From Clostridia bacterium (GTDB taxonomy: Bacteria > Bacillota > Clostridia > Oscillospirales > Acutalibacteraceae): a stretch of 64,000 bases of DNA. The position numbers were made by a program, and so were the translations under genes. The notes below the pieces were generated by a model. The model did no database searches. It had not been told where the DNA came from and saw nothing but the letters and a program-made list of their open reading frames with translations. The stretch lies in assembly GCA_017431035.1 (NCBI GenBank), contig JAFRLW010000012.1, positions 1 to 64,000 of the forward strand. The letters are read 5' to 3'. Positions 1 through 57,597 of this stretch are shown one piece after another (position 1 is the stretch's first letter; every line of letters begins with the position of its first letter).

Positions 1-23
1 ATATATATTTATTATATAATATA

Positions 24-7827: not shown

Positions 7828-7856
7828 AGTATAGCATATATAGAGAGGGATTTCAA
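7828..7856 (-). promoter_or_regulatory. Sigma-A-type promoter of lipoprotein gene
   Basis: On the minus strand TTGAAA (7856-7851) and TATACT (7833-7828) are separated by 17 bp. The predicted start lies about 40 nt upstream of the lipoprotein ATG. Confidence 0.65.
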
Positions 7857-7894
7857 GAAAAAAGAAAACCCCGCCCTTCGGCGTTTAATGAAGC

Positions 7895-7909
7895 GTTTGC
7901 TTTGCAAAC
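7895..7909. repeat. Small hairpin with AATGAAG linker
   Basis: GTTTGC-TTT-GCAAAC is preceded by AATGAAGC. The same linker plus three-base-loop design recurs in the hairpin array at 18651-18847, which also lies beside a tRNA gene. Confidence 0.5.
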
Positions 7910-7951
7910 ATGAAACACTCGCCTACGCTACAGCACGGCTGAAAAGAAAAC

Positions 7952-18073: not shown

Positions 18074-18532
18074 TTGGAGGTGGCGGGTATAAAGGCTGCG
18101 TTTATGGAAATGGCGCTTCTTGAAGCAAAAAAAGCGCTTGACGCCGGCGAAATGCCCGTCGGCGCCATTATAGTAAAAGATAATATGGTTATTGCCCGTG
18201 CTCACAATATGAGAGAGGCGAAAAAAAGCACCCTCTCTCACGCCGAGTGCGAGGCTATTCGTATTGCAAACGAGGTTTTAGGCGACTGGCGACTTGACGG
18301 TTGCACTATGTATGTCACATTAGAGCCTTGTATGATGTGTATGGGCGCCATTATAAATGCGAGAATATCGGAACTTGTTTTCGGAGCGTTCGACCAAAAC
18401 AAAGGCGCAGTCGAGAGCAAACTGAACCCGACCGCCATAGCCGATAAAATGCCCGAAATATATGCAGGAATAAAAGAAGATAAATGCAAAAGGCTTATAA
18501 ACAGATTTTTCAAAGAGGTCAGAAACAAATAA
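18074..18532 (+). CDS. tadA: tRNA adenosine(34) deaminase TadA
   Basis: This zinc deaminase converts A34 to inosine in tRNA-Arg(ACG). HAECEAIRIA gives the zinc histidine and catalytic glutamate, and PCMMCMGAI the two zinc cysteines. The start is uncertain. Homologues begin where this frame reads IKAAFMEMAL, at codon ATA 18089, which is correctly spaced from the strong GGAGGTG (18076-18082). The in-frame TTG 18074 and GTG 18080 lie on or before that site, and ATG 18104 is 21 bases past it. The coordinates given use the longest form; the product is otherwise a normal length of about 150 residues. Confidence 0.92.
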   Translation: MEVAGIKAAFMEMALLEAKKALDAGEMPVGAIIVKDNMVIARAHNMREAKKSTLSHAECEAIRIANEVLGDWRLDGCTMYVTLEPCMMCMGAIINARISELVFGAFDQNKGAVESKLNPTAIADKMPEIYAGIKEDKCKRLINRFFKEVRNK

Positions 18533-18537
18533 TTTTT

Positions 18538-18611
18538 GCGGATATAGTTTAATGGTAAAACCCCAGCTTCCCAAGCTGGCCATGCGGGTTCGATTCCCGT
18601 TGTCCGCTCCA
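18538..18611 (+). tRNA. tRNA-Gly (anticodon CCC), CCA encoded
   Basis: The 74-nt cloverleaf has acceptor GCGGATA/TGTCCGC, D-arm TAGTTTAATGGTAAAA, anticodon stem CCAGC/GCTGG with loop TTCCCAA (anticodon CCC), T-loop TTCGATT and encoded CCA. It starts five bases after the tadA stop, so it is probably transcribed with tadA. Confidence 0.95.
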
Positions 18612-18612
18612 C

Positions 18613-18646
18613 AAAAAACCTTGTTCAAAAGAACAAGGTTTTTTGT
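18613..18646 (+). terminator. Rho-independent terminator after tRNA-Gly
   Basis: AAAAAACCTTGTTC and GAACAAGGTTTTTT enclose a four-base AAAA loop, and the stem ends in a T-run. Confidence 0.88.
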
Positions 18647-18650
18647 GTTT

Positions 18651-18847
18651 GTGTCCGAAAGGACACAATATCGTTTTGCGACTGTGTCGCAAATATCATT
18701 TGACAGGGCAAAGCCCTGACAACACCGTTTGTTTATTTTTATAATAAATCGGACACAAAACGAAGTTATGCAATAGCATAAATGAAGTGATGCTACGCAT
18801 CATCAGTGTTACGGCATTTGCCGTAAACGATGTTGCACTTCGTGCAA
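18651..18847 (+). repeat. Array of seven tandem small hairpins
   Basis: Seven stem-loops with 5-8 bp stems and two- to four-base loops follow one another: 18651-18666, 18675-18693, 18704-18718, 18766-18781, 18788-18802, 18809-18826 and 18833-18847. Stem sequences are unrelated to each other, and the last four are joined by six- to eight-base linkers such as AATGAAG and ACGATG. No open reading frame covers the array and none of the last hairpins has a terminator T-run. The array ends about 40 bp before a truncated reading frame. Confidence 0.8.
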
Positions 18848-18880
18848 AAGTGTGATAACATATGTTTGGCTTAAGAAAGG

Positions 18881-18977
18881 GTGATCGGTTTGAAAAACGA
18901 TAAATTGTCAGATCTTTCTATTTGATAGCTTCTATAAAAACAGCAAAGAAAAACACTCAAAAGCAGGCGGGAAAATG
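18881..18977 (+). pseudogene. Internally deleted remnant, possibly four-helix-bundle (23S rRNA IVP-like) gene
   Basis: After a GAAAGGGTGAT site the frame opens as (V)IGLKNDKLSDLSI and stops. A different frame directly after it reads LIASIKTAKKNTQKQAGK and stops within the next gene's start. N-termini of the KLSDLS type and C-termini of the SIIKTAKKN type belong to the small four-helix-bundle S23/IVP family, so an internal deletion seems likely. The family match is from memory of typical ends and is tentative. Confidence 0.4.
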
Positions 18978-19928
18978 AAATTATATATATCCGAGCACGA
19001 AAAATCGGGCGGAATACACGTATTTGATTTATCTGATAAAAGAGTCGACGAAATACAATTTATAAAACTTGACCGACCGACCTATTTTACAATAGAGGGC
19101 GACAAACTCTATGCCGTATTGCGTGACCCGTTTGGAACTATGGAGAGCGGAATGGTCACTTTTGATATAGCAAAAGACGGAACGCTTTATAATATGAGCA
19201 AAACAGTTGCCACAAACGGCAAAAGCGGATGTCATATCTCGGTAAATAAATGGGGTATTTATATCGCAAACTACCGCTCGGCAAACATTTGCAAAATGCC
19301 GGACAGAGTAGTAGTACATACCGGCGGCGGACCGAACACAGAACGTCAGGAAGAGGCGCACCCTCATTTTGCAAAAATCACCCCTGACGGCAAATATATA
19401 ATAGCGACCGACCTCGGCACTGACGAGGTGTATCTTTACGACAAAAACCTAAAAGAGATTTCACGTTGCAAATTGCCTTGCGGAGTGGGATCCCGACATA
19501 TCGCATTTAATAAAGACAAAAAGACCGTTTATATATCCCTTGAACTTTCAAGCGAGGTGGCAACCCTTTCGCTTTCAGGCGACAAACTTGAATATATCGG
19601 CTCACAAAAGACCATACCAAACGGCTATAACATAGAGAACTTCCCTGCGGCAATAAGGGTGAAAGACGATTTTTTGTACGTATCTAACAGAGGACACGAC
19701 AGTATAGCCGTTTTTGATATAAAGGAAAAAGCGCCAAAACTTTTAGAAAACGTTTCTTCCTTTGGCGAAAACCCGAGAGATTTTTATATAAAGGGAAAAG
19801 GACTTGTCTGCGTAAACAGAATAAGCGGAGATATTGTTTTTTATAAACTGATAAACGGAATGCCAAAACGTGAAGATATAAAACTAAAAGTTAATTCCCC
19901 TACCTGCGTTATATTAGATGATAGATAA
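18975..19928 (+). CDS. Lactonase-like beta-propeller protein
   Basis: This 317-residue protein fits the seven-bladed lactonase/6-phosphogluconolactonase (Pgl, YbhE) family. It contains HPHFAKITPDGKYIIATDLG at about residues 126-145, GSRHIAFN and the FPAAIRVKDDFLYVSNRGHD block. Typical members are about 340 residues, so the N-terminus is slightly short. No signal peptide is seen, so it is cytosolic. Either lactone hydrolysis in the pentose phosphate pathway or another propeller function is possible. AGGCGGGAAAATG supplies the start. Confidence 0.78.
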   Translation: MKLYISEHEKSGGIHVFDLSDKRVDEIQFIKLDRPTYFTIEGDKLYAVLRDPFGTMESGMVTFDIAKDGTLYNMSKTVATNGKSGCHISVNKWGIYIANYRSANICKMPDRVVVHTGGGPNTERQEEAHPHFAKITPDGKYIIATDLGTDEVYLYDKNLKEISRCKLPCGVGSRHIAFNKDKKTVYISLELSSEVATLSLSGDKLEYIGSQKTIPNGYNIENFPAAIRVKDDFLYVSNRGHDSIAVFDIKEKAPKLLENVSSFGENPRDFYIKGKGLVCVNRISGDIVFYKLINGMPKREDIKLKVNSPTCVILDDR

Positions 19929-41073: not shown

Positions 41074-41113
41074 AAAAGAAAGACAGCCCGCAAAAACGGA
41101 CTGTCTTTCTTTG
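41074..41113. terminator. Bidirectional terminator
   Basis: AAAGAAAGACAGCCCG and CGGACTGTCTTTCTTT pair across CAAAAA. It ends minus-strand transcripts from tRNA-Ala. Nothing else is seen between 40926 and 41074. Confidence 0.8.
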
Positions 41114-41210
41114 GTGGAGCAAGATGTCTTAAAGACAAACACCCGGTCGGGGAATAAAACTTGCGGTCTGCATAAACTTTATTCTCGAATTGGGTGCGGC
41201 ACCTTGCCGC

Positions 41211-57483: not shown

Positions 57484-57568
57484 ATGGAGAATACTCCGGA
57501 GAATTTCTTAAATGAAATGCCGAAGGTGCAAGGCGAAAGCCGAATCTCTCAGGCAAAAGGATGGAGCA
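57484..57568 (+). ncRNA. Glycine riboswitch (single aptamer)
   Basis: ACTCCGGAGAATTTC, GAAATGCCGAAGGTGCAAGG and AATCTCTCAGGCAAAAGGAT then GGAGC match the glycine aptamer core: CCGAAG, CTCTCAGG and GCAAAAGGA. Only one full aptamer is evident. The segment before it (57463-57490, TAGACCGTATATGG) may be a ghost or linker partner. The downstream gene is a likely glycine/alanine symporter, consistent with glycine control. Confidence 0.88.
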
Positions 57569-57597
57569 AAATCTGTTTTGGGTTTTTCCTTTTCTTT

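Follow-up and report, generated by a model that had tools for sequence, protein, structure and literature searches.

A mirrored hairpin array behind a tRNA-Gly terminator in a Clostridia genome: possible front end of a mobile cassette for an IVP-family four-helix protein

In the window, by which we mean the whole 64-kb stretch of DNA analysed, a tRNA-Gly gene and its terminator are directly followed by eight perfect hairpins at 18649-18847, with stems of 6–8 bp and loops of 2–5 nt (Table 1). The initial annotation had described a series of seven hairpins behind this tRNA; the series is real but numbers eight, the fourth member (18732-18748) consisting of A and T only. Scanning the window for perfect stems of at least 6 bp with loops of 2–5 nt revealed that the array, together with the adjoining tRNA arm and the terminator, is the sole region in which at least four such hairpins start within 160 nt; under a stricter hairpin-cluster rule the array goes unreported at five hairpins and is split in two at four. 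The array matches no Rfam family at gathering score, in line with the earlier view that no known riboswitch fits, and CRISPR and simple tandem repeats fit no better: the direct repeats of the region are two-copy and 72–90% alike, and identical repeats are absent. Rfam did identify a glycine riboswitch aptamer (RF00504) at 57486-57574 (+), unrelated to the array.

Table 1. Coordinates of the tRNA-Gly locus, the hairpin array and the genes behind it
Feature	Position	Strand	Basis or remark
tRNA-Gly (anticodon CCC), anchoring gene	18538..18611	+	ARAGORN, Rfam RF00005
tRNA intrinsic terminator hairpin, 17-bp perfect stem; left edge of array	18610..18647	+	inverted-repeat and hairpin scans
Hairpin 1, TTGTGTCC-GAAA-GGACACAA, 8-bp stem	18649..18668	+	hairpin scan
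Left linker 1, ATATCGTT	18668..18675	+	partner in consensus fold is the last right linker
Hairpin 2, TTTGCGAC-TGT-GTCGCAAA	18675..18693	+	hairpin scan
Left linker 2, ATATCATT	18693..18700	+	linker parse
Hairpin 3, TTGACAGGGC-AAA-GCCCTGACAA; one mismatch, inner 6 bp perfect	18700..18722	+	inverted repeat, hairpin scan
Left linker 3, ACACCGTT	18722..18729	+	linker parse
Hairpin 4, central, A/T only	18732..18748	+	hairpin scan
CGGACACAAA, third copy of hairpin-1 arm, mid-array, alternative partner	18750..18759	+	full 11-nt match 18749-18759, 100%
Right linker 1, AACGAAGT	18759..18766	+	linker parse
Hairpin 5, TTATGC-AATA-GCATAA	18766..18781	+	hairpin scan
Right linker 2, AATGAAGT	18781..18788	+	linker parse
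Hairpin 6, TGATGC-TAC-GCATCA	18788..18802	+	hairpin scan
Hairpin 7, TTACGGCA-TT-TGCCGTAA	18809..18826	+	hairpin scan
Right linker 3, AACGATGT	18826..18833	+	linker parse
Hairpin 8, TTGCAC-TTC-GTGCAA	18833..18847	+	hairpin scan; counterpart in intact relatives holds the cassette promoter -35 box
Remnant of four-helix gene, start	18890..18922	+	residues 1-11 of a relative, 8/11 identical
Remnant of four-helix gene, end	18922..18948	+	residues 105-113, 9/9 identical
Presumed cargo gene, Lactonase / 6-phosphogluconolactonase-like	18975..19928	+	PF10282, E 6.7e-69

The linkers between the hairpins form two mirrored sets: the left linkers ATATCGTT, ATATCATT and ACACCGTT are the reverse complements of the right-type linkers AACGAAGT, AATGAAGT and AACGATGT, in degenerate form. 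The words AATGAAG and ACGATG, previously taken to recur, each occur exactly once in the array; what recurs is the degenerate linker, mirrored between left and right. The mid-array copy of the hairpin-1 arm is a further complementary repeat. Folding of 18610-18880, which includes the 17-bp terminator hairpin, gave z-scores of -8.6 and -9.2 for the two strands relative to dinucleotide shuffles. Long-range complementary 8-mers in 18613-18897 numbered 6 as compared to 1.15 in shuffles, but at least 5 were also present in 8 of 222 other window stretches.

A DNA search matched 13 of 99 genomes of the same genus and order, the window's own included. Not all matches are arrays: L019 (L numbers denote loci, G numbers genomes) was judged to lie in coding-like sequence and L021 to be without an array, and the layout of the window is found at, for example, L012, L013, L015, L017, L018, L025, L026 and L028. 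The motif of the left end of the array occurred in 89 stretches (90 matches) of named genomes; the titles of 80 of these stretches are nearly all of uncultured Clostridia, Oscillospiraceae or Ruminococcus, mostly with ruminant-gut sample names. A strict cluster detector, which found an array in 28 of the 89 motif loci and missed the window, was dropped. The initial annotation had named a single origin of the pattern as grounds for rejecting it; the same pattern is present in many related genomes. Among 80 type-A arrays (of the 90, 9 were dropped for short upstream sequence and one as a duplicate), 51 start 31–43 nt behind a same-strand tRNA gene, with 13 kinds of tRNA represented (ARAGORN), a placement whose chance we estimate at roughly 2 in 10,000; for the remaining 29, ARAGORN found no tRNA within 70 nt upstream. 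Single cases have other anchors: a 5S rRNA-like stretch, read by eye, precedes L156, and a tmRNA precedes L219.

That structure rather than sequence is kept in these arrays had been proposed from the window alone, and the relatives bear it out. For alignment, arrays having three left linkers and four right ones were chosen and the window was added, 18 in all; their consensus fold comprises 41 pairs, with 97.5% of cells in standard pairs and double compensatory changes at 18 of the 41, although this structure was derived from the same alignment and so favours itself. Covariation was 0.314 in the 18 arrays, as compared to 0.107 when shuffled and at most 0.059 when slid, and the 'further pair types' measure was reached by 20 of 500 shuffles. 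The arm-swap test of hairpin segments, which is independent of the alignment, agrees: among 247 distinct segments from 67 parsed arrays (out of 91 given, with duplicates and unparsed arrays dropped), a strong stem is formed by 75% on the left and 71% on the right, as compared to 14–15% when arms were swapped between hairpins and 6% when shuffled. All four Watson-Crick pairs are seen at stem positions 3–5 (left) and 2–5 (right), and the stem of hairpin 1 is invariant across the 18 aligned arrays. The first left linker and the last right one form the outermost, closing helix, which has a single covarying column and in which 3 of 18 sequences do not pair. Nested pairing of linkers inside elements is favoured only weakly (p 0.043). 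A covariance model of similar arrays, suggested in the initial annotation as a check, was built from these 18 (the window among them); at E ≤0.001 it identified arrays in 12 of the 61 genomes of the genus, the window copy being the only one in its own genome.

In the relatives, the array is part of a cassette with a regular order: terminator, array, promoter (its -35 box in the last hairpin), a four-helix gene in some, and a variable gene. Among the type-A arrays, 80 distinct ones have 650 nt or more of downstream sequence; a full four-helix gene comes next in 28 of these, a partial one in 1 and none in 51. The four-helix protein of the relatives belongs to PF05635, 23S_rRNA_IVP (E 3.7e-27), and also matches TIGR02436; all 16 of 16 four-helix proteins across the subfamilies match PF05635. 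The protein is basic (pI 8.8); among solved structures, 2rld is a relative, and a profile adds 2gsc. Its gene is present in 49 of 61 genus genomes, with up to 7 matches each, and across the class in 32 of 148 genomes and 28 of 113 genera; 39 plasmid records match the protein, all at less than 60% identity. At least four hairpins lie in the 310 nt upstream of 17 of 30 four-helix loci of the genus, as compared to 2 of 204 window stretches (mostly coding). A tRNA within 450 nt upstream was found for 19 of these 30 loci and, across the class, for 13 of 27. Of 33 cassettes headed by a four-helix gene, 29 have a promoter of the form TTGnnn-16..18-TAnnnT before the gene, with a 17-nt spacer in 28, and at least 19 have the -35 box inside a hairpin. 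Because this promoter stands at the far end of the array, the array lies outside that promoter's transcript.

In the window, the S23/IVP reading frame, complete in relatives, is represented by its two ends only, with about 93 codons between them missing, and the window's genome contains no match to the four-helix protein at E ≤1e-5. The remnant frame ends in a stop at 18976-18978 that runs into the start codon of the lactonase gene (18975) as ATGA, and the same overlap of four-helix stop and next start is found in 5 of the 28 full-length cases (L032, L061, L073, L079 and L095). The window copy is a worn cassette whose four-helix gene has lost its middle. An earlier suggestion that the locus might be a hot spot for insertions of the intervening-sequence (IVS) type came close, in that the relatives encode a member of the 23S-rRNA-intervening-sequence protein family and the window retains a remnant of its gene. 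Homologues of the lactonase occur in 5 of 61 genus genomes including its own, the other four being 36–40% identical. More widely, 44 Pfam families were matched by a set of 43 downstream proteins, made up of the window's own and 42 of relatives that were selected by eye among 69 candidates; each of the 25 families listed was matched by one member only, and some of these proteins are surely host genes. Reading or scanning of cassette genes revealed neither a recombinase nor a transposase nor a reverse transcriptase.

Grouping by eye and motif distinguished at least eight linker types upstream of four-helix genes, each of them mirrored. Long-range complementarity is significant in 46 of 54 such upstream regions (mean 12.6 versus 0.86 shuffled), and in the other 8 the mirroring is not significant; at least five complementary 8-mers occur in 43 of the 54, as compared to the 8 of 222 window stretches. 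Type F arrays consist of a long mirrored linker stem alone, without small hairpins, which fits a pairing of left with right linkers. In 26 of 29 cases, the array type is that of the nearest four-helix relative (mean of 0.14 after shuffling), a count from which 21 of 56 loci without a label were left out and in which a crude motif rule labelled the type-A arrays L149 and L214 as B.

One of the sister types has been met before under another name. Type-H (TGAAAT/ATTTCA) arrays precede four-helix genes at 5 loci, and the Rfam model of Gut-1 (RF01706, 77 nt) matches the first hairpins and TGAAAT linkers of a sister-type array at L012 2146-2219 (-). A tRNA precedes the start of this match by no more than 40 nt. 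The array stands at the front of a cassette whose ORF, read by eye, is ADP-ribosylglycohydrolase-like, and a type-A array comes next. Gut-1 RNA corresponds to the opening 77 nt of a sister array type. The window array differs from Gut-1 in both linkers and stems, and has no gathering-score match to it, nor any at E ≤1 over 18500-19100. The available text of the 2010 description presents Gut-1 as most likely an independent non-coding RNA, found in human gut only, and is without mention of a mirrored half, tRNA anchoring, a four-helix gene or cargo (PMC2864571).

The Gut-1 precedent favours a reading in which the array is an expressed structured RNA, either a non-coding RNA or a leader arising by read-through from the strong promoter of the tRNA, that regulates or protects RNA, with the spread of cassettes being secondary. 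The strong compensatory changes also fit this reading, as do the mismatches of the array stems: across all subfamilies, G-T exceeds A-C by 12 to 3 (two-sided p 0.035), as expected if the coding strand folds, and terminator stems lean alike (11 to 3, p 0.057). This lean hints that it is the coding strand that folds. Against an expressed RNA, the bias is not significant in type A alone (16 versus 9, p 0.23), the mirrored layout is foldable on both strands, and the covariance model matches both strands of several arrays. The array also has the cassette promoter at its far end (in 29 of 33 four-helix-headed cassettes) and a terminator ahead of it, and inspection of the coding strand revealed no promoter for an array RNA. 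We regard this reading as rather unlikely.

Several pairs of related loci bear on whether the cassettes move. Two MAGs carry L073 and L079, respectively, after the same tRNA-Tyr. Their host upstream DNA is 84.1% identical and their terminators differ; identity rises to 99.5% across the array and four-helix gene, and past the stop codon of that gene the sequences are unrelated (45.5%). These data suggest that the module of array, promoter and, often, four-helix gene is likely to move or be exchanged as a unit. They give no support to a terminator travelling with the cassette, as the two loci share the module and differ in terminators. Common descent of a linked module could also account for the co-segregation of array type and protein, and ordinary recombination between tRNA-flanking regions could produce the L073/L079 picture. 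At L116, three cassettes stand in tandem behind tRNA-Cys; the orthologous L089 and L109 differ in one 39-nt stretch of the array. At L059 and L104, a 40-nt terminator is repeated exactly on either side of the cassette, a flanking direct repeat that is absent from most other arrays screened. These two loci, used here for the flanking repeat only, share 1711 nt at 100% identity, one of their MAGs being labelled Lentisphaeria and the other Clostridia, and diverge at -111 before the array; the identity may reflect horizontal transfer or a binning error. The right boundary of the cassettes varies from case to case. The idea that type-A cassettes end in a copy of the tRNA 3'-end failed, with a mean of 7.4 mismatches versus 7.8 in the control (35 cases). 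A phage element was likewise rejected: a slightly shorter left-end motif had 0 matches in viral contigs, and the four-helix protein had two distant phage matches and no PHROG.

A single insertion site, behind tRNA-Gln, allows comparison across the genus. Thirty loci were fetched, the tRNA end was recognised in 27, and downstream sequence was available for 26; of these, 7 carry a hairpin array, of five types as judged by eye and with one degenerate, and two of the 7 arrays come after a repeated tRNA end. In the other 19, no hairpin array was seen in the up to 330 nt examined, and at least three of them (G001, G013 and G029) have type-F-like mirrored linker runs. This site also bears on the possibility that the array is a host-selected insulator, whose weak terminator-like hairpins shield the downstream gene from tRNA read-through and which is copied by ordinary recombination. 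The arrays do stand between tRNA transcription units and their own promoter, as an insulator would. However, apart from the tRNA's own terminator, the stems lack the T-run of an intrinsic terminator; array types vary among relatives at this one site and are unseen in others; and the array type co-segregates with the four-helix gene. An insulator is, in our judgement, very improbable.

Other inserts were observed behind tRNA genes. A short insert lies behind the terminators of tRNA-Gln loci L189, L194, L195, L199, L200 and L212, and the same type is found at tRNA-Gly and tRNA-His loci L015, L026, L127, L130, L142 and L146; several copies have a reverse-complement tRNA T-arm near their start and close with a directly oriented copy of the tRNA 3'-end, behind which stands a second terminator. 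The tRNA 3'-end copies located 134–184 nt behind the tRNA at the tRNA-Gln site belong to such other inserts. In the window at 41110-41210 (-), a near copy of the tRNA-Ala end (CTCCACCA) occurs about 97 nt downstream, before a terminator, and may be the same kind of tRNA-end echo insert. The region behind tRNA-Pro at 7830-7915 (-) of the window has TTTCATGTTTGCAAAGCAAACGCTTCATTAAAC and, ahead of an ORF start, a TATACT box; it resembles the right end of a decayed array with another linker type. At L111, about 3600–3800 nt past the array start, a second, interrupted tRNA-Cys copy stands behind a four-helix gene start; a terminator comes next, and then a further hairpin array begins.

Two known kinds of element suggest an enzyme that might act on the arrays from elsewhere. 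REP/BIME elements are clustered short palindromes in mirrored orientation, associated with RAYT Y1 transposases, and their palindrome is conserved and has a GTAG or CGTC foot; diversity-generating retroelements encode Avd, which is a four-helix protein. On this reading, the array is a site used as single-stranded DNA or for target priming by a Y1 transposase (REP/BIME-like) or a reverse transcriptase (diversity-generating retroelement-like). The BPP-1 retroelement is reported to need, at its homing site, an 8-bp stem capped by a GAAA loop, as hairpin or cruciform, of which the stem sequence is flexible and the loop fixed (PMC3240598). Hairpin 1 of the window has both, yet among the 18 aligned arrays the GAAA loop in hairpin 1 is unique to the window, the others having GCA, GTA, GCAA and so on. 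Diversity-generating retroelements resemble the cassettes in combining a four-helix protein with a hairpin of variable stem sequence, but have one hairpin and a reverse transcriptase with template and variable repeats, whereas the cassettes have many hairpins and 45 of 61 genus genomes had no reverse transcriptase match. A profile of the four-helix protein searched against the PDB matched only 2rld and 2gsc and no Avd entry. The reverse transcriptase family PF00078 had matches in 16 of the 61 genomes of the genus, among them 14 of the 49 that carry a four-helix gene and 2 of the 12 that lack one; it is absent from the window's genome (95% complete) and was not found in G009, G028 or G034 (94–98% complete, with 7, 3 and 6 four-helix matches). 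Y1 matches are present in most genus genomes (42 of 61 at E ≤0.001, 41 of them over the cut-off), but are absent from the module carriers G001, G050 and G051. Neither enzyme, then, is found everywhere the module occurs, a comparison that gaps in MAGs limit. Unlike REP/BIME palindromes, the array stems differ in sequence, the linkers are the conserved words, and a cassette with a promoter and four-helix gene follows. We consider an enzyme site of this kind unlikely.

Taken together, the reading we prefer, and to which we give about an even chance, is that the window array is the front end of a cassette behind a tRNA terminator that is likely mobile, and that it serves as a folded end for the cassette's own four-helix protein. 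The mirrored linkers would pair and fold the array into a branched rod; the basic four-helix protein would bind this fold, as a DNA single strand, a cruciform or a read-through RNA, and bring the cassette to the next terminator; and host enzymes would do the cutting and joining. In the window, the cassette would have lost its mobility, the lactonase gene being its cargo. Counted against this reading are the 51 of 80 type-A arrays without an adjacent four-helix gene, the absence of a recombinase, transposase or reverse transcriptase from the cassettes as seen, the variable right boundary, the mostly missing flanking direct repeat, and tRNA 3'-end copies no better than control.

Integron cassettes, too, carry small variable genes, sometimes in tandem; their attC site follows the gene, keeps its fold over its sequence and is recognised by the IntI integrase. 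By layout, the array cassettes differ: the array stands in front of the gene, brings a promoter and is anchored at tRNA terminators. Another related system is the IVS of 23S rRNA, a small self-complementary element linked to stable RNA and associated with the S23/IVP protein (PMC4990558). IVS and cassettes share the protein family PF05635, and both are small, self-complementary and tied to stable RNA genes. However, an IVS lies inside a 23S rRNA helix and is cut out by RNase III, whereas the cassettes lie behind terminators, mostly of tRNA genes, and have hairpin arrays, their own promoter and variable following genes; Rfam found no rRNA in the 64-kb window, and the array is not an insertion in a 23S helix.

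More broadly, the cassettes might represent a new kind of mobile element, in which IVP-family four-helix proteins move small genes between the terminators of tRNA and other stable-RNA genes by means of mirrored arrays that act as folded recognition ends, and IVS, Gut-1 and the cassettes might form one superfamily without a recombinase, transposase or reverse transcriptase of its own; we offer this tentatively, as a possibility short of an even chance. The cassette system is provisionally new, in that the open-licence papers searched (subscription papers and preprints lay outside the search) contained no description of such cassettes. It would provide a home for two loose ends, Gut-1 RNA, so far unexplained, and the IVP/S23 four-helix family, which has no known function. 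Among the gut Clostridia of this genus, it would be a small and frequent cassette system that places diverse genes behind tRNA units, and its four-helix protein and array would constitute a named, directly testable pair.
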